Assembly: GCA_009840625.1 (NCBI GenBank)
Contig: VXNJ01000009.1
Coordinates: 1-64,000, forward strand
From: Chloroflexota bacterium
Lineage (GTDB): Bacteria > Chloroflexota > UBA11872 > VXNJ01
DNA: 64,000 nucleotides
Reading direction: 5' to 3'
Each line of letters starts with the position of its first letter. The stretch's first letter is position 1. Below, piece after piece: positions 11,799 to 21,159 of this stretch. Below the pieces are notes generated by a model, which ran no database searches, was not told the origin of the DNA, and saw nothing but the letters and a program-made list of their open reading frames with translations. The position numbers were made by a program, and so were the translations under genes.

Positions 11799-12836
11799 AT
11801 GGTAATCGTCACCAAGGTCGGCACTCCGGCCAGTGGAATCGAGCGGATTGAGGAACGTATCCGCGAGGAAGGCCTCAAGCCGCACCGAATCGAAGGCTCC
11901 ACCCTGACCGTGATCGGCGTGATCGGGTCGCCGACCGAAGAATTCCGGGAACAGATGGCGGTGTTTTCCGGTGTCGACCGGGTATTGCGGATCGGGCGGC
12001 CCTACACCCTGGCCGGCCGCGGCGACGGCCGCACCGACACCGAATTCGAAGTCGGTTCGGCCCAGTTCGGGGGTCCCGGCGTCACGATGATCGCCGGCCC
12101 CTGCACCATCGAGTCACGCGAGCAGCTGTTTTCGACCGCCAAGGCGGTGAAGGCGGCCGGTGCCTGCGTTCTGCGCGGCGGTGCGTTCAAGCCGCGGACG
12201 TCACCGTACAGCTTCCAGGGTATGGCCACCGAGGGCCTCGAACTCCTGCGCGAGGCGTCCGAGGAGTTCTCGATTCCGACTATCACCGAGGTGATGGAAC
12301 CGGGTCTCGTCGAACAGGTCTCCCAATTCACCGACATCCTGCAAATCGGCGCCCGCAACTCACAAAACTTCCCGCTGTTGCGCGAAGCCGGACAGAGCGG
12401 GCTGCCGGTGATGGTCAAGCGCGGTCCTTCGAGCACGATCGAAGAATGGTTGCTCTCGGCCGAATACGTCTTGGCCGCCGGCAATCCCAAGGTGCTGCTC
12501 TGCGAGCGTGGAATCCGCACCTTCGAGACATCCACCCGCGCGACCCAGGACATTTCCGCCATCGCCATGGCCAAGCGCCTCTCGCACCTGCCGGTGATCG
12601 TCGACCCGGCGCACGGGACCGGCAAGTGGTACCTGGTGGAAGCAATGACCCTGGCCGGCGTGGCGGCCGGCGCCGACGGAGCAATGCTCGAAGTGCACCC
12701 CGAGCCCGACCATGCCATCTGCGACGGCCCGCAGAGTCTCACGTTCGCCAATTTCGAACAGGCGATGCGACGGCTCCGGCAAATGTCCGATGCGCTGGGT
12801 CGGCCGTTGCGCGAACCGGCGTTAGCCGCCGCTTGA
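11799..12836 (+). CDS. aroF: DAHP synthase (AroF/AroG type I-beta)
   Basis: Condenses phosphoenolpyruvate and erythrose 4-phosphate to DAHP, the entry step of the shikimate pathway. The 345 residues comprise an N-terminal ferredoxin-like regulatory domain (1-70, MVIVTKVGTPASGIERI) and a TIM barrel (about 85-330). The metal site is visible as Cys102 in AGPCTIES, the same position as in the Thermotoga enzyme, with DPAHGTG and MLEVHPEPD. The N-terminal domain is the feedback module for aromatic amino acids in this subfamily. It heads aroF-aroA-aroE-aroK-aroB, preceded by a hairpin plus terminator leader, so both enzyme and transcript may sense end products. Confidence 0.95.
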   Translation: MVIVTKVGTPASGIERIEERIREEGLKPHRIEGSTLTVIGVIGSPTEEFREQMAVFSGVDRVLRIGRPYTLAGRGDGRTDTEFEVGSAQFGGPGVTMIAGPCTIESREQLFSTAKAVKAAGACVLRGGAFKPRTSPYSFQGMATEGLELLREASEEFSIPTITEVMEPGLVEQVSQFTDILQIGARNSQNFPLLREAGQSGLPVMVKRGPSSTIEEWLLSAEYVLAAGNPKVLLCERGIRTFETSTRATQDISAIAMAKRLSHLPVIVDPAHGTGKWYLVEAMTLAGVAAGADGAMLEVHPEPDHAICDGPQSLTFANFEQAMRRLRQMSDALGRPLREPALAAA

Positions 12837-12838
12837 GA

Positions 12839-14143
12839 ATGAAATTGCCTCATCCGGGGATGGCTTCGGCCATAAATTCGGCCTCGGCCGTGCGGGGCCG
12901 CATACAGGTGCCGGGCGATAAGTCGATAACCCACCGGTCTCTGCTGCTGAACGCCCTGGCCCGGGGCGGCGCGCGGGTTCGCGGTGCCGGGCTCGGTGGA
13001 GACTGCCGCTCCAGCATCGCCTGTCTGCAGGGCCTGGGGGTAAGCGTGCTCCGGGATGGTGACCAGCTTGTCATCGACAGCCCCGGCGTAGATGGTTTCG
13101 ACGAGCCTGCGAGCCCCCTCGATTGCGGAAATTCAGGCACCACGATGCGGCTGCTGCTGGGACTGCTGGCCGGATGCGGCCGGTTCGCGGTGGTGGTCGG
13201 AGACGATTCGCTCTCGGCCCGTCCGATGGGCCGCGTGGCCGGCCCGTTGCGCCGCATGGGGGCCCGGATATTTGGCCGCGGCGGCGGAGAACTGGCCCCG
13301 TTGGCGGTCCTTCCGGCCTCGCTGTCCGGGACCCAAATCGACGTTCCGGTCGCGTCGGCGCAGGTTAAGAGCGCGCTGCTTATCGCCGGTCTCAACGCTG
13401 ACGGCGTCACTCGAATCAGGCAACCGGCCCGGTCGCGCGATCACACCGAAATCATGCTCGCGGCGATGGGCGCTGGACTTGAGATTGATGGCGCCGAGCT
13501 GGCGATCGAGGGCGGCCAGCGGCTGGAGACGATCGACGTGGACGTGCCGGGGGATTTTTCTTCGGCCGCGTTCTGGCTCGTGCTGGGCGCCAGCCACCCC
13601 GATGCGAGCCTGGAGATCGCCAACGTCGGCATCAACCCGACCCGCGCCGGCACGCTCTCCGTCCTGAAACGCATGGGGGCCAAGATTGCGATCGATCCCA
13701 ACCCCGCCGGGGCCGAGCCGTCAGGAACCCTGGCGGTGGACAGTTCGTCCCTCAGCGCGACCGAAATCGGCGGCGCCGAGATTCCGATCCTCATTGACGA
13801 AATTCCGGTGCTGGCGGTGGCCGCCACCCAGGCCGAAGGCACCACGAGGATCCGCGACGCCGGTGAGCTCCGCGTGAAGGAGACCGACCGAATCTCGGCT
13901 ACGGTCAGTAACCTGGCGGCCATGGGCGCCCGTATCGAAGAGTTGCCCGACGGGATGGTAATCGAGGGTCCCACGCCGCTGAGCGGGGCGCGGCTGGATT
14001 CACACGGCGACCACCGGGTCGCGATGGCGATGGCAGTGGCCGCGAGCATCGCCGGCGGGGAAAGCCGGATCGACGATGCGGCCGCGGTGAACATCTCCTA
14101 CCCCGGGTTCTTTGACGAGCTAGGCCGGGTCTGCGCAGCCTGA
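12839..14143 (+). CDS. aroA: EPSP synthase (3-phosphoshikimate 1-carboxyvinyltransferase)
   Basis: Transfers enolpyruvyl from PEP to shikimate 3-phosphate, step six to chorismate. The 434 residues contain the signatures GDKSITHRSLLLNALA near the N-terminus, LDCGNSGTTMRLLLGLL, RVKETDRI and SHGDHRVAMAMAVA. The ATG at 12839 lies 2 bases after the aroF stop; ATG 12860 is a possible alternative. The sequence keeps a Gly in the PEP-binding loop (CGNSGTT). Confidence 0.94.
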   Translation: MKLPHPGMASAINSASAVRGRIQVPGDKSITHRSLLLNALARGGARVRGAGLGGDCRSSIACLQGLGVSVLRDGDQLVIDSPGVDGFDEPASPLDCGNSGTTMRLLLGLLAGCGRFAVVVGDDSLSARPMGRVAGPLRRMGARIFGRGGGELAPLAVLPASLSGTQIDVPVASAQVKSALLIAGLNADGVTRIRQPARSRDHTEIMLAAMGAGLEIDGAELAIEGGQRLETIDVDVPGDFSSAAFWLVLGASHPDASLEIANVGINPTRAGTLSVLKRMGAKIAIDPNPAGAEPSGTLAVDSSSLSATEIGGAEIPILIDEIPVLAVAATQAEGTTRIRDAGELRVKETDRISATVSNLAAMGARIEELPDGMVIEGPTPLSGARLDSHGDHRVAMAMAVAASIAGGESRIDDAAAVNISYPGFFDELGRVCAA

Positions 14144-14961: not shown

Positions 14962-15500
14962 AGCAAGCGAACCGTCCGTCGCGCATCTGGCTGGTCGGCC
15001 TTTCCGGATCCGGCAAGTCGACCGTCGCCCGTGAACTGGCGGCCCTGCTGGACTGGCGCGTCTTGGATTCTGACCAGGAAATCAGGAACCTGGCAGGGAT
15101 GGATATACCCGAGATATTCGATGTCCTCGGCGAAGACCACTTTCGCGAGATGGAACGGTCGATTGCGGCCCGCGCCGCCGAGGCCTGCCGGGTCGTCGTC
15201 GCGACCGGCGGGGGGCAGATGGCCAACGGCTGTCTGGCCGAAGTTATGCTGGGCAGCGGTGCGGTCGTTTACCTGCGAGCGCGCCCGCGGACCTGCGCCT
15301 CTCGCTTGGCGACTCAGCTCGGCACCGAGGGGCGTCCGATGCTGGGCGGGGAAGGCAGTCTCACCAAGAAGCTCGACAGCCTGCTCAAGCGCCGCCGGCC
15401 GATATACGAGTCGGCGCACCACAGTCTGGACGTTGACGGTACCGAACCGCGCCGCCTCGCAATGAACATCAGGGAGATGCTCGATGCTGACCCAGCCTGA
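14958..15500 (+). CDS. aroK: Shikimate kinase
   Basis: ATP-dependent 3-phosphorylation of shikimate. The 180 residues show the P-loop GLSGSGKSTVARELA (14-28), DSDQEI with the shikimate-binding acidic residue, the FREMER motif, GGG in VATGGGQ, and a LID-like RARPRTCASRL. The GTG start shares bases with the aroE stop, and its own end overlaps aroB by 17 bases, so translation is probably coupled. Confidence 0.93.
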   Translation: MKQANRPSRIWLVGLSGSGKSTVARELAALLDWRVLDSDQEIRNLAGMDIPEIFDVLGEDHFREMERSIAARAAEACRVVVATGGGQMANGCLAEVMLGSGAVVYLRARPRTCASRLATQLGTEGRPMLGGEGSLTKKLDSLLKRRRPIYESAHHSLDVDGTEPRRLAMNIREMLDADPA

Positions 15501-16560
15501 CGGGTACACACCCGAGTACGTGGCCATCGGGCAGGGAATCCTGGACGACCTCGGAAGGGAGCTGGCGCTGCGCGGGGTGGAGCCCGCCGCCGCGTTCCTG
15601 ATCGGGGACGAATCAGTCGACGCCCATTACGGGGACCGCGTCGCAAGCGCGCTCGAGGAAGCAGGATGGCGTGTTTGGCGCCGGACGGTCCCGGCCGGCG
15701 AGGAGAGCAAATCAGTGGCCGCCGCCGAGCAGCTGTGGCAGTGGCTGCTCCGTTGTCGCGCCGAGCGCTCAGACCTGATAGTGGCCCTCGGCGGCGGCGT
15801 GGTGGGAGACCTGGCCGGATTCGTGGCCGCCACTTGGGGACGCGGTATTGCCTGGGCGCAGGTGGCTACCACCCTGCTCGCCCAGGTTGATTCCAGCATC
15901 GGCGGCAAGGTCGCGGTCGACCTGCCCGGCGGCAAGAACATGGTCGGCGCATTCCACAATCCGGTGCTCTCGCTCCTGGACACCCTGACCCTGCAAACCC
16001 TGCCGCAGCGCGACCTTGCCTCCGGGTGGGTGGAGGCGATCAAACACGGATTAATCCGCGACGCTGCCTATCTGGCCGAACTCGAACGGGCCCCGTTCGA
16101 CCTCCGCGATCCGGAAATGCTGGAACTGGCGGTGCGAAATTCGGTGCGCATCAAGTCCGAGGTTGTTGTCAACGACCCCTTCGACCGCGGGCTGCGGGCA
16201 GTGCTCAATTACGGCCACACGGTCGGGCACGCGATCGAAACCCTCGGCCAATATCGCCGTCACCGTCACGGCGAAGCGGTCGCGATCGGGATGGCCGCCG
16301 CCGGATACATCTCGACCAAGCTCACCGGCCTCGGAAACGACGAGCTGGAACGTCAGAACGCGTTACTTAAGGCCTGCGGCATCGAACTTGCGGCTTCGGG
16401 CTTTGCGGCCACCGAAGTCGTGACAGCGATGCAGGCGGACAAGAAGTCGGCCGGCGGACGCCCACGCTGGGTGCTGCTGGAGGAGCTGGGGACGGCCAGC
16501 GCCGGTCATTCCGTCGATGACACGCTGGTGCGCGAAGCGCTGGCCGCCATCGGCATTTGA
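15484..16560 (+). CDS. aroB: 3-dehydroquinate synthase
   Basis: Converts DAHP to 3-dehydroquinate using NAD and a divalent metal. The 358 residues contain GEESKS, the glycine-rich ALGGGVVGDLAGFVAATWGRG, TTLLAQVDSSIGGKVAVD, and the metal site NYGHTVGHAIE. The ATG lies within the end of aroK. Genes for 3-dehydroquinate dehydratase (aroD/Q) and chorismate synthase (aroC) are not in this window. Confidence 0.95.
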   Translation: MLTQPDGYTPEYVAIGQGILDDLGRELALRGVEPAAAFLIGDESVDAHYGDRVASALEEAGWRVWRRTVPAGEESKSVAAAEQLWQWLLRCRAERSDLIVALGGGVVGDLAGFVAATWGRGIAWAQVATTLLAQVDSSIGGKVAVDLPGGKNMVGAFHNPVLSLLDTLTLQTLPQRDLASGWVEAIKHGLIRDAAYLAELERAPFDLRDPEMLELAVRNSVRIKSEVVVNDPFDRGLRAVLNYGHTVGHAIETLGQYRRHRHGEAVAIGMAAAGYISTKLTGLGNDELERQNALLKACGIELAASGFAATEVVTAMQADKKSAGGRPRWVLLEELGTASAGHSVDDTLVREALAAIGI

Positions 16561-16641
16561 CGCCAAGCCCCCTAGAATTTTCGCGGCCGGTGCTGGCAAT
16601 CCCCGAATAGTTGCAACCCAACCGCTAAGAGGCCTGCGAAC

Positions 16642-17502
16642 TTGGAGCAATTCGGCTCCTTTCTGGCAATAGTCATCGCGCTGCTGGGCGCCTTCGCCGC
16701 GGCGGTGTGGGTGGCAGCCATCTTCTGGGCGTTCAACGATGTCCGCGGGCGAACGCTCGACATCTACGTACGCCTGTTCGCGACGCTGCTGGTCGCGGTC
16801 CTAGGCCCGGCCGGAGTGGTCCTTTACCTGATCCTGCGTCCTCCCGAAACCCTCGACAGCGTATACGTGCGGGCCCTGAACGAAGAAGCGATCCTGCGTG
16901 AATTGGAAGCCGGTACGCGACGGCCCGGACCGGTCCCCGAGCCCGGCGGCGGCACCGGACCGGTAATCGTTCCCTTCCGCGGGCACGTTCCCCAGATCGA
17001 TCCGGAAGCGTGGGTGGCGCCGGGCGCCGTAATCGTCGGCCAGGTAACCCTCGAGCGGGGGGTCACCGTCTGGTACAACGCGGTAATCCGGGCCGACCAC
17101 GAGCCGATTTCGGTCGGCGCCGGATCCAACATCCAGGACGGCGCGGTCCTGCACATCGAACATGGGCAGCCGGTCGTGATCGGCCGCAACGTAACCGTGG
17201 GTCATGGCGCCATAGTGCACAGCGCAACCATCGAGGACGGCGCACTGATCGGGATGGGCTCGACGGTCCTGGACGGGTCGCGCATCGGCGAGCGAGCGGT
17301 GGTGGGTGCCAACGCGCTCGTGACTCAGAACACCACCTGCCCGCCCGCATCGCTGCTGCTTGGGGTACCGGCCAAGGTCGTTGGCCAGGTCCGGCCCGAG
17401 CAGATCGACTACATGCGGCGCAACGCCGCCGAATACAGCCAGCTGGGCGCCGAAAACCTGGCCGGCGGGGACCAGGGCATGGCCGGTAGCGAACCGCGTT
17501 GA
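16642..17502 (+). CDS. Fusion: two-helix membrane anchor plus gamma-class carbonic anhydrase-like domain
   Basis: Residues 1-30 and about 44-65 form two membrane segments (FLAIVIALLGAFAAAVWVAA; FATLLVAVLGPAGVVLYLIL) followed by a basic-acidic helix. From about 105 to 275 the protein is a left-handed beta-helix of the gamma-carbonic anhydrase/YrdA family (VAPGAVIVGQV; VWYNAVIRADHEPISVGAGS; SNIQDGAVLHIEHG; VGHGAIVHSATI). Candidate zinc ligands are His171 or His174, His188 and His193. YrdA-like proteins are normally soluble and about 170-190 residues long, so the anchor is unusual. The start is a TTG at 16642 and the end overlaps moaD. CO2 hydration at the membrane is inferred; many family members lack proven activity. 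Confidence 0.85.
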   Translation: MEQFGSFLAIVIALLGAFAAAVWVAAIFWAFNDVRGRTLDIYVRLFATLLVAVLGPAGVVLYLILRPPETLDSVYVRALNEEAILRELEAGTRRPGPVPEPGGGTGPVIVPFRGHVPQIDPEAWVAPGAVIVGQVTLERGVTVWYNAVIRADHEPISVGAGSNIQDGAVLHIEHGQPVVIGRNVTVGHGAIVHSATIEDGALIGMGSTVLDGSRIGERAVVGANALVTQNTTCPPASLLLGVPAKVVGQVRPEQIDYMRRNAAEYSQLGAENLAGGDQGMAGSEPR

Positions 17503-17744
17503 AAGTGCGGGTGCTCTACTTTGCCCAATTGGCGGAAATCGTCGGACTGCGCGAGGAGATCTTCGACCTTGAACCGGGCGCCACGACGGGGCTGCTTTTT
17601 CGCCGCATTGGCATCGACCATCCCGGTGTCGGCGAACTGAAGGGGTCGTTGCGGCTGGCGCTCAACTGTCAATTCGTCAACGATTCCGAACCACTTAGCG
17701 ATGGCGATGAATTCGCCTTGATTCCGCCGGTCAGCGGTGGCTGA
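17499..17744 (+). CDS. moaD: MoaD/ThiS-family sulfur-carrier protein
   Basis: An 81-residue ubiquitin-like protein ending in the diglycine SGG that is adenylated and thiocarboxylated. MKVRVLYFAQLAEIVGLREE and DEFALIPPVSGG match MoaD, the small subunit of molybdopterin synthase. No MoaE or MoeB gene is adjacent, so a role in molybdopterin is likely but not proven by context. It starts with TTG overlapping the previous stop. Confidence 0.85.
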   Translation: MKVRVLYFAQLAEIVGLREEIFDLEPGATTGLLFRRIGIDHPGVGELKGSLRLALNCQFVNDSEPLSDGDEFALIPPVSGG

Positions 17745-18441: not shown

Positions 18442-19035
18442 TCAGCCGGTGCTGCGGCGTACGTGCTGGATCCGCTGCAGGGCGGTGAAATTGGTCACCG
18501 CGGCCAGGACCCAGACCGCCGCCAACAGGATCCAGTCGGCAACCACGGCCGCCGCCACCAGGGAGAGTCCGAGAATGAGCAACCGTTCGGGACGCTGCAG
18601 AAAGCCGACTTTGCATTCCAGCCCCAAACCCTCGGCGCGGGCGCGGCAATAGCTGACCATCAACGAACCGCTGATTGCCAGCAGCGATCCGAATACCCCC
18701 CAGTGCCCGGATGACTGGGCATAGTGCCAGGAGAGTCCTGCGAAGAAAAAAATCTCTACGTAGCGGTCGAGCACGGAATCCAGAAACGCCCCAAACCGGC
18801 TGGCACTGCCTTGCAGTCGGGCCAGCGCGCCATCGAGCGAATCCAGCGCCGTCGCCGGGAGAAGGACTATGCCGGCCCAGAGGTGGTAATCGAACGCGAT
18901 CAGCAAGGCCGGGACCAGATTGAGGGCCGATCCGAAAATCGTGATCGAGTTGGGCGTCAAAGGCGTGCGGTCCACGATCCGGGCCAGACCCGTCATCAGC
19001 TTTCTGAACCGCTCCTGCAGCCGGGACCAGCTCAA
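18442..19035 (-). CDS. CDP-alcohol phosphatidyltransferase (PgsA/PI-phosphate synthase-like)
   Basis: A 197-residue integral membrane enzyme joining a CDP-lipid to a polar alcohol. The family signature is complete: Asp65, Asp68-Gly69, Ala72-Arg73, Gly82, Asp86, Asp90 (D-x2-DG-x2-AR-x8-G-x3-D-x3-D). About five hydrophobic segments follow. It is the last gene of a run with a PimA-like glycosyltransferase (4-base overlap) and a PatA-like acyltransferase. By analogy with the mycobacterial pgsA1 cluster, the acceptor may be inositol phosphate. Glycerol phosphate or another alcohol remains possible. Confidence 0.88.
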   Translation of the reverse strand: MSWSRLQERFRKLMTGLARIVDRTPLTPNSITIFGSALNLVPALLIAFDYHLWAGIVLLPATALDSLDGALARLQGSASRFGAFLDSVLDRYVEIFFFAGLSWHYAQSSGHWGVFGSLLAISGSLMVSYCRARAEGLGLECKVGFLQRPERLLILGLSLVAAAVVADWILLAAVWVLAAVTNFTALQRIQHVRRSTG

Positions 19036-20258
19036 TTCCCGATCGCCCTGCCGGCAGTGGGTCCCAGGTTTTCGGATTGGATGCGCGAGCGGGCGCGCAG
19101 GAGTTCGACATAGTAGTCGTACACCCGGGTAGCCACGACCTCCCAGGAGAAATCGTTGACCCGTTGGCGACCGGCGCGCCGGAAGCGGTCGGCGGTGCCC
19201 GGGTGCTGCAGCAGGCGCAGAATCCCACGGGCCAGGGCGCGTTTGTCATCGGGAGCGCAGTAGAGGACCGCGCTTCCGTCGGGTGAAACCGTCCGGTATC
19301 CGGGGATGTCCGAAGCGACCACCGGAGTTCCGGCGGCCATGCCTTCCATGAGCACTATCCCCTGGCTCTCGCGCGCCGAACCCTGGGCCGGCGCCACCAA
19401 AATGTCGGCCGACTGCAGATACGCGCGCTTTTCGTCTTCGGAGACGCGGCCGGTGAAGATCGTGTCCTGGATACCGGCCCGCTGCAGGCGCCGGCGCGCC
19501 CGCTGCAGTTGGCCCTGGTCGTAGGCACCGACCACCACCAGTCGCGCGTCGGGACGCAGACGTCGCACCGTAGCCATCGCATCCAGCAGCAGCGGCAGGC
19601 CCTTACGTTTTTCCATACGGCCGAGAAACATGATCGCCGGGCGCGAACCGGCCATTTCGGCGATCGGTTCGGCCGGGGTCCCGAACCACTCCGGGTCGAT
19701 TCCGTTGGGGATGATCCGGTACTCGCCAGGGAACGCCCGCCAGACGAAGTCTCTGGCGGCGACCGAAACGGCTATCTTGCCGTCCAGGCGTCTGTGGAAT
19801 CCCTCCAGCAACGGTTTGTAGGCACGGTAGACGGTCGAAGTCTTGCGGGTGGCGTGGAAAGTCCCGATGTTTATGGCGCTGGAGAGCCGCAGCACCTGGA
19901 GCGGCAACACCGGTGCCATCGGCTCGTGGATGTGGACGACGTCGAATCCGCCGTCCTCAGCGAGCTCGCGCTCGATCGCCGGCCGCATCCGCGGCGAAAG
20001 CGCCAGTCGCGCGATGGATCCGTTGCTGCGGACCGGTACGATCGTGCGCGAGATCCCGACCACGCCCGGGGTGTCCAGGTTGCCCACCGGCGCCGAGCTC
20101 GGGGCCATGATCTTGACGAAGTGACCGCGCCGCCTGAAGATCCGTGCCAGGTTCGAGATGTGGGCGCCGACCCCGCCCGGCACCGCGAAATCGTACGGCG
20201 AGACGAGGCATACGCGCAGGCGCTCCGGGTCGGCCGGGCGACTAGGCGACTCGATCAC
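19032..20258 (-). CDS. GT4 glycosyltransferase, PimA-like
   Basis: A 408-residue GT-B enzyme. The N-terminal acceptor domain starts CLVSPYDFAVPGGVGAHISNLAR, with the Gly-Gly loop and VHIHEPMAPVLPLQ as in phosphatidylinositol mannosyltransferase PimA. The C-terminal donor domain has MFLGRMEKRKGLPLLLDA and the E-x7-E motif in ESQGIVLMEG. It probably adds mannose to a phosphoinositide or related lipid at the inner membrane face. Its neighbours, an acyltransferase and a CDP-alcohol transferase, are the same set as in the Mycobacterium PIM cluster. Substrate is inferred. Confidence 0.85.
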   Translation of the reverse strand: MIESPSRPADPERLRVCLVSPYDFAVPGGVGAHISNLARIFRRRGHFVKIMAPSSAPVGNLDTPGVVGISRTIVPVRSNGSIARLALSPRMRPAIERELAEDGGFDVVHIHEPMAPVLPLQVLRLSSAINIGTFHATRKTSTVYRAYKPLLEGFHRRLDGKIAVSVAARDFVWRAFPGEYRIIPNGIDPEWFGTPAEPIAEMAGSRPAIMFLGRMEKRKGLPLLLDAMATVRRLRPDARLVVVGAYDQGQLQRARRRLQRAGIQDTIFTGRVSEDEKRAYLQSADILVAPAQGSARESQGIVLMEGMAAGTPVVASDIPGYRTVSPDGSAVLYCAPDDKRALARGILRLLQHPGTADRFRRAGRQRVNDFSWEVVATRVYDYYVELLRARSRIQSENLGPTAGRAIGN

Positions 20259-20274
20259 AGCCGTTGGACCGGGG

Positions 20275-21159
20275 TCAGCACTCGGACGCCGGCCAGAAGG
20301 TGCGGAACTGGTACCACTGGTCCGGGGCCGTGCGAATGAGGCGCTCGAGACTGGCGACGGTGGCCTGCAACAGTCGTTTCACCTCGGCCTCGCGGGGCGC
20401 CGACCGGTCAGGGATGATCGATTCGGCGACGCGCAGGATCGCCTGACCCGAACCGCCCCGGTAGACGACCAGAGGGACAATCTCGGCGTTGGTGCGTATC
20501 GCCAGCTTGGCGACCCCGGCCGGCAAGCGGGTGATCCGCCCGAACCAAGTGACCGGGACCCCGCCCTGCTCCAGCGGCCGATCGACCAGGATCGCCACCC
20601 GGCCGCCTTTCCGCAGGACAGAGAACATCTGCCGGATATCACGACGCATGTCCAATGATTTCATGCCCAGATGAACGCGCAGACGCCGAAACACCTCGGT
20701 CATGCCGGGGTTGGCAAACGATTCCTGGACGACGTGGATCTCGGACAGCGAGGCGCCCCAGGAGGCGGCGGCATCCCAGGTCCCGAAATGGCAGGTGGCA
20801 ACGATAACCGGCCCGTTGTAGGCGATGTGATGGGCGCGCTGGCGCGCCATCGGCGAATAAAAGTGCAACTGGCGATGCAGCTCGACCGGCGGGGCCAGGT
20901 AGGCTTCGGCCATCGAGAGGGCCTGCAACAGGAAGTTCTCGATCGACCGGCGGGCCAGGCGACGGACCGTATCGTCACCGGCCGCGGCCCCGAGCATGAC
21001 GGCCATGTTGGAACTTGTCGACGCGCGCATCTTCGCCGACAGGCGGAAGACGATATGAGCGATCAGATTGACGACCGGACGCTTGATCGCCCAGGGGACC
21101 ATGTTCGTCAGGCGGCAACCGGCTTCGAAAAGCATCAGCCAGGCCCAGCCTCGTGGCAT
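20275..21159 (-). CDS. Lysophospholipid/PIM acyltransferase (HtrB/PatA-like)
   Basis: A 294-residue LPLAT-superfamily acyltransferase. The catalytic H-x4-D is in CHFGTWD (near residue 123), followed by the ARILVDRP-like block VAILVDRPLEQGGVPVTWFG and PLVVYR. A hydrophobic N-terminus suggests membrane association. Similar proteins acylate lipid A (LpxL) in Gram-negatives or the mannose of PIM1 (PatA) in mycobacteria; the PimA-like and PgsA-like neighbours favour the second. It overlaps the end of rny as TGATG. Confidence 0.85.
   Translation of the reverse strand: MPRGWAWLMLFEAGCRLTNMVPWAIKRPVVNLIAHIVFRLSAKMRASTSSNMAVMLGAAAGDDTVRRLARRSIENFLLQALSMAEAYLAPPVELHRQLHFYSPMARQRAHHIAYNGPVIVATCHFGTWDAAASWGASLSEIHVVQESFANPGMTEVFRRLRVHLGMKSLDMRRDIRQMFSVLRKGGRVAILVDRPLEQGGVPVTWFGRITRLPAGVAKLAIRTNAEIVPLVVYRGGSGQAILRVAESIIPDRSAPREAEVKRLLQATVASLERLIRTAPDQWYQFRTFWPASEC

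Follow-up and report, generated by a model that had tools for sequence, protein, structure and literature searches.

An open reading frame at positions 16642 to 17502 (+) of a 64,000-nucleotide (nt) stretch of a Chloroflexota genome (GCA_009840625.1, contig VXNJ01000009.1; here, the window) raises the question of whether a gamma-class carbonic anhydrase (gamma-CA) has been tied to the membrane by gene fusion, or whether two neighboring genes have been joined by an error. The frame encodes 286 amino acids (aa) from a TTG start and runs without interruption. It had originally been predicted to join a two-helix membrane anchor to a full gamma-CA domain, and our analysis agrees that a real two-helix membrane segment and a full gamma-CA with complete active-site residues lie in one gene. 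The features of the locus are collected in Table 1.

Table 1. Features of the fusion gene and its immediate neighbors in the window.
Feature	Coordinates	Strand	Basis or remark
aroB (3-dehydroquinate synthase), conserved upstream neighbor	15484..16560	+	
AAGAGG Shine-Dalgarno-like motif	16627..16632	+	9 nt upstream of TTG; read from the sequence by eye
Anchor-gamma-CA fusion gene	16642..17502	+	Open frame; full-length homologues
Transmembrane helix 1, residues ~6-30	16657..16731	+	Hydropathy; AlphaFold helix 2-37
Transmembrane helix 2, residues ~43-65, broken near Gly55-Pro56	16768..16836	+	Hydropathy; AlphaFold helices 41-54, 56-65
Charged helix after membrane hairpin, residues 71-92	16852..16917	+	Also in anchor-zinc-ribbon proteins; AlphaFold
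Pro/Gly-rich flexible linker, residues 93-107	16918..16962	+	Low pLDDT; alignment
CamH-type gamma-CA domain, left-handed beta-helix and C-terminal helix, residues 108-274	16963..17463	+	NCBIfam, PDB phmmer, AlphaFold, Foldseek
His171, candidate zinc ligand	17152..17154	+	Aligns to Pyrococcus His65
His174, shuttle-position histidine	17161..17163	+	Alignment; Pro, Ala or Asp in sister-family fusions
His188, candidate zinc ligand	17203..17205	+	Aligns to Pyrococcus H82
His193, candidate zinc ligand	17218..17220	+	Aligns to Pyrococcus H87
moaD-like gene, overlaps fusion stop (TTGA)	17499..17744	+	Also follows separate gamma-CA gene in family

The start of the frame is sound, since homologues in 14 other genomes begin at this residue too, using GTG or ATG. 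All 14 belong to a sister family and have the same architecture, full length and in one frame, at ~46 to 51% identity. Together with these one-frame fusions, the codon position GC, which stays coding-like throughout the junction (~16910 to 16960), leaves no frameshift at the place where the original prediction had asked for a check. Several of the sister-family matches carried a "1 TGA" flag, which proved to mark the C-terminal stop rather than an internal one.

To place the N-terminal ~90 residues, we combined hydropathy with structure prediction. Two hydrophobic segments reach Kyte-Doolittle maxima of 2.66 (residues ~6 to 30) and 2.37 (~43 to 65), and the AlphaFold2 model, built on a 35-sequence alignment, has helices at 2 to 37, 41 to 54, 56 to 65, and 71 to 92, followed by a disordered linker at 93 to 107; the two membrane helices originally proposed are thus supported from both sides. 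The anchor has no Pfam match at E 1, and the best match to a paralogous copy elsewhere in the window genome has an E-value of only 0.12. Across Chloroflexota, we found the anchor in 51 of 61 sampled relatives, one copy each. In the homologues examined, a zinc ribbon lies C-terminal to the helix ending LLREIE, at the same place as the linker of the fusion, and the two that were scanned carry a double zinc ribbon (DZR; PF12773). Rather than resembling short membrane proteins that usually stand alone, as first thought, the anchor is the N-terminal part of a nearly phylum-wide DZR protein. These anchor-DZR proteins share with the fusion an anchor of equal length that is 44 to 62% identical within the class (54 to 62% within the window's own family), a hairpin-loop motif, and, in families f1 and f3, an aroB-proximal locus; where they end in a DZR, the fusion has no CxxC motif and carries a gamma-CA instead. 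That the hairpin motif is conserved suggests an anchor that is not simply a generic hydrophobic segment. Several of the two-helix DZR proteins (e.g., L064 5473-5910; L145 5760-6218) are encoded near aroB, and Pfam and NCBIfam assign the family no function beyond the zinc ribbon. The fusion would provide, by a Rosetta-stone argument, the first functional hint for a protein that is single-copy in most of the Chloroflexota sampled.

The C-terminal part is a clear gamma-CA (NCBIfam gamma-CA, E 1e-50; PDB phmmer, E 1e-42). It is modeled as a monomer with a pLDDT of ~97, forms a left-handed parallel beta-helix followed by a C-terminal helix, as expected of CamH, and superposes by Foldseek on 3vnp, 1v3w, and 9jyw with target-normalized TM-scores of 0.96 to 0.98. 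Its score against the gamma-CA equivalog NF050158 (171.7 bits) lies below the curated cutoff of 250 bits, which makes it homologous to that equivalog yet outside it. The alignment to Pyrococcus CamH is gap-free over residues 110 to 275, so the acidic loop of Cam-type enzymes is absent. His171, His188, and His193 are invariant across the aligned fusions, as are Arg150, Asp152, Gln165, and Asp166, which match the catalytic Arg/Asp/Gln/Asp set (PMC8000050). The original prediction had counted His174 among the zinc ligands as well; the Pyrococcus alignment and published CamH data (PMC8000050) uphold the other three and place His174 at the proton-shuttle position instead.

Several CamH enzymes have a proposed proton-shuttle histidine at this site, which is Pro in the Thermus enzyme and Thr in that of Thermosulfidibacter, and the Thermus enzyme, which has no effective shuttle residues, showed no activity in vitro (PMC8000050); not all CamH members are active (PMC7447434). 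His174 is shared with the four separate gamma-CAs of the window's family, and in all 14 fusions of the sister family this position is Pro, Ala, or Asp. Since it has the shuttle-position histidine, the window protein makes a better case for activity than the sister-family fusions do.

How widespread is the fusion? Within the order, a small one of uncultivated Chloroflexota, it occurs in 15 of 24 genomes, namely, the window genome and 14 of the 19 sister-family genomes (two genera), while four genomes of the window's family (G001 to G004) encode the anchor-zinc-ribbon protein and the gamma-CA separately. Neither the fusion nor the separate genes were found in the remaining five sister-family genomes (G017, G019, G020, G021, and G022, genus g6; no fusion, separate anchor, or gamma-CA at E 1e-12). 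Four of these five have a beta-CA-like match, and a loss in this subclade is possible. Beyond the order, neither the class (41 genomes, counting those of the order) nor 400 sampled Chloroflexota genomes yielded a further fusion; a scan of the contigs of 84,980 species recovered at least three full-length fusions among the best 80 loci, all Chloroflexota.

We next compared gene order. In the window it reads aroA-aroE-aroK-aroB-[fusion]-moaD-PHP-phosphatidylinositol-phosphate-synthase-like gene-glycosyltransferase. G001, from the window's family, has aroB-[anchor-zinc ribbon]-[gamma-CA]-moaD-moaE-PHP, where the two genes are direct neighbors, and G002 and G003 have radC between them; neither the window genome nor G001 has radC. 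Because the four relatives in the window's own family have both genes separate at the same aroB...moaD locus, the gene order indicates that the fusion originated at this locus, the zinc ribbons having been lost. Stepwise, loss of radC would have joined up the two genes, and the fusion would then have followed from deletion of the zinc ribbons together with stop and spacer. Among the class relatives, family f3 has the anchor-zinc-ribbon gene close to aroB in L053 and beside maf in L053 and L055, with the gamma-CA on another contig.

The neighborhood has other features of its own. Although moaD follows the fusion, moaE of the window genome is on another contig (G000:C7:39306-39656); the two are adjacent in the family. 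The aroA (EPSP synthase) frame at 12446 to 14143 extends beyond the family match by ~140 N-terminal residues, and its true start is probably further in than the listed one. Downstream, at 18442 to 21159 (-), the phosphatidylinositol-phosphate-synthase-like gene, a GT4 glycosyltransferase, and a phosphatidylinositol-mannoside/lipid A-type acyltransferase adjoin. We take this set to resemble the actinobacterial PIM gene trio, which would be unexpected in Chloroflexota.

In the sister family, radC follows the fusion, an order that differs from that of the window and indicates a separate fusion event. In the gamma-CA tree, the window sequence groups with the separate gamma-CAs of its own family (support, 100/98), as it groups with its family in the concatenated tree (97/94.6); the anchor-only tree places the window and the sister family together (60/24). 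A tree in which all fusions form one clade is nevertheless compatible with the data (p-AU, 0.29 for the gamma-CA and 0.135 for the concatenation). From gene order and trees together, we favor two independent fusions, one in the window's lineage and one in the sister family. The fuller statement, that the same neighbors fused twice independently in one order and that each time a zinc ribbon was swapped for the enzyme, is more tentative and falls a little short of an even chance. If it is true, some inorganic-carbon or zinc-linked process at the Chloroflexota membrane would have the anchor as its dedicated partner, and gamma-CAs could be tethered in bacteria much as they are in plant complex I.

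These comparisons also bear on the possibility of an assembly artefact, in which a deletion or frameshift in a metagenome-assembled genome would have joined two genes. The original prediction had named separate genes in homologues and a sequencing error at the junction as evidence against the fusion: separate genes do occur in relatives, but nothing points to a sequencing error, and the fusion is present in other genomes. An artefact would fit the two-gene state of the same-family relatives G001 to G004, and the window species is represented by one assembly only, with tree and synteny suggesting a fusion independent of that in the sister family. However, the identical one-frame architecture in 14 other genomes and the coding-like junction lead us to reject frameshift or assembly error as the main explanation; moreover, the window linker is Pro/Gly-rich and unrelated to zinc-ribbon sequence, and a chance error would have had to take out, in frame, the zinc ribbons together with stop and spacer. 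We therefore regard an artefact as very improbable.

To ask whether both parts of the fusion are maintained, we estimated dN/dS in the sister family, which is 0.06 to 0.18 for the anchor, 0.12 to 0.14 for the gamma-CA, and 0.35 to 1.07 for the linker. These values indicate that both halves are under purifying selection while the linker drifts, as expected of two functional domains on a tether. An internal start, or proteolysis of the linker, could instead free a soluble gamma-CA and let anchor and enzyme act apart. The window has an in-frame TTG at 16903 (residue 88), most sister-family fusions have a Met (ATG) at the equivalent place, and a disordered linker is protease-prone; yet one sister-family member (L011) has Ile at this place, there is no clear ribosome-binding site ahead of the window TTG, and the fused frame has been kept in 15 genomes. 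We consider release of the enzyme in this way improbable.

Our preferred reading, which we hold to be reasonably likely, is that the gene encodes a membrane-tethered CamH-type gamma-CA that interconverts CO2 and bicarbonate at the membrane, with activity and topology both predicted. Gamma-CAs are trimers with zinc sites at subunit interfaces. We infer zinc binding, trimerization, catalysis, sidedness, and physiological purpose as follows. Residues 1 to 91 would form a membrane hairpin inherited from the two-helix DZR protein of Chloroflexota, and residues 108 to 274 a CamH-type protomer with a complete zinc site. Three copies would trimerize through the beta-helix, with active sites at the subunit interfaces, and six helices, joined to the trimer by flexible linkers, would tie it to the cytoplasmic membrane. 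Its most likely job would be CO2/bicarbonate interconversion right at the membrane. The gamma-CA head is probably on the cytoplasmic face, because the part that it replaced in relatives is a DZR and double zinc ribbons are normally cytoplasmic; by positive-inside charge count, the 2 to 4 Arg in the hairpin loop make an outward-facing C terminus possible. A 184-aa frame elsewhere in the window genome has a partial Pro_CA match and would encode a beta-CA-like protein, so the genome need not depend on the fusion as its only carbonic anhydrase.

A different role for the same protein would be that of a membrane-bound trimeric scaffold, or of a zinc protein without significant carbonic anhydrase activity, in which the ancestral function of the anchor dominates and the beta-helix serves as a multimerizing or metal-binding head. 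The gamma-CA did take the position of a zinc-binding head, the sister-family fusions have no shuttle histidine, and the role of the plant complex I gamma-CAs is unknown, activity not having been demonstrated there (PMC7447434). Such a role sits poorly with zinc and catalytic residues that are complete in every aligned fusion, with strong purifying selection on the gamma-CA part, and with the shuttle histidine of the window protein, and we consider it unlikely. If the transmembrane gamma-CA holds, it would show how CO2/bicarbonate conversion can be brought to the membrane by a simple genetic route.

Like the CamH enzymes of Pyrococcus horikoshii (1v3w), Geobacillus (3vnp), Aeribacillus (9jyw), and Caloramator (9qev), the fusion has the common fold, the zinc ligands, the catalytic Arg/Asp/Gln/Asp, no acidic loop, and a nearly gap-free alignment over the whole domain. 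Unlike these solved proteins, which have no transmembrane segment, it has 107 extra N-terminal residues comprising the two-helix anchor and linker. A check of 20 Chloroflexota gamma-CAs, mostly in long open frames, added no anchored case, which leaves as the only other one L151 of G106 (C412, 1594-3363, -), a 589-aa protein that runs from a Ser/Thr kinase (PF00069) at the N terminus through a single transmembrane segment to a gamma-CA at the C terminus. It too is a gamma-CA bound to the membrane by gene fusion with its zinc histidines kept, but its anchor is different, its gamma-CA is predicted to lie outside the cell, and it occurs in one genome only. Two further candidates were discarded: the upstream frame of L156 reaches a hydropathy of 1.75 but precedes its likely start, which lies 10 or 2 residues from the domain, and the segment joining PAP2 to gamma-CA in L070 resembles a shifted frame. 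No description of a gamma-CA with transmembrane helices turned up in the literature searched, although this does not prove that none exists. The parts are known, and it is their combination that appears new, a conserved and narrowly distributed domain architecture for a known enzyme.

The premise that family members are normally soluble agrees with the way in which bacterial gamma-CAs, of which the fusion would be a transmembrane version, are generally treated, but it has an exception in those of plant complex I, which are membrane-associated by amphipathic, not transmembrane, helices (PMC7447434). These are the nearest precedent for a membrane-held gamma-CA, and the fusion would be their bacterial counterpart. 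In the plant and algal mitochondrial complexes (e.g., 7aqq and 6x89, both Foldseek matches), as predicted for the fusion, a gamma-CA trimer is held at the membrane by N-terminal sequence. There, the N-terminal helices are amphipathic and run along the matrix surface of the inner membrane, and the trimer binds complex I (PMC7447434), whereas the fusion has two predicted transmembrane helices.
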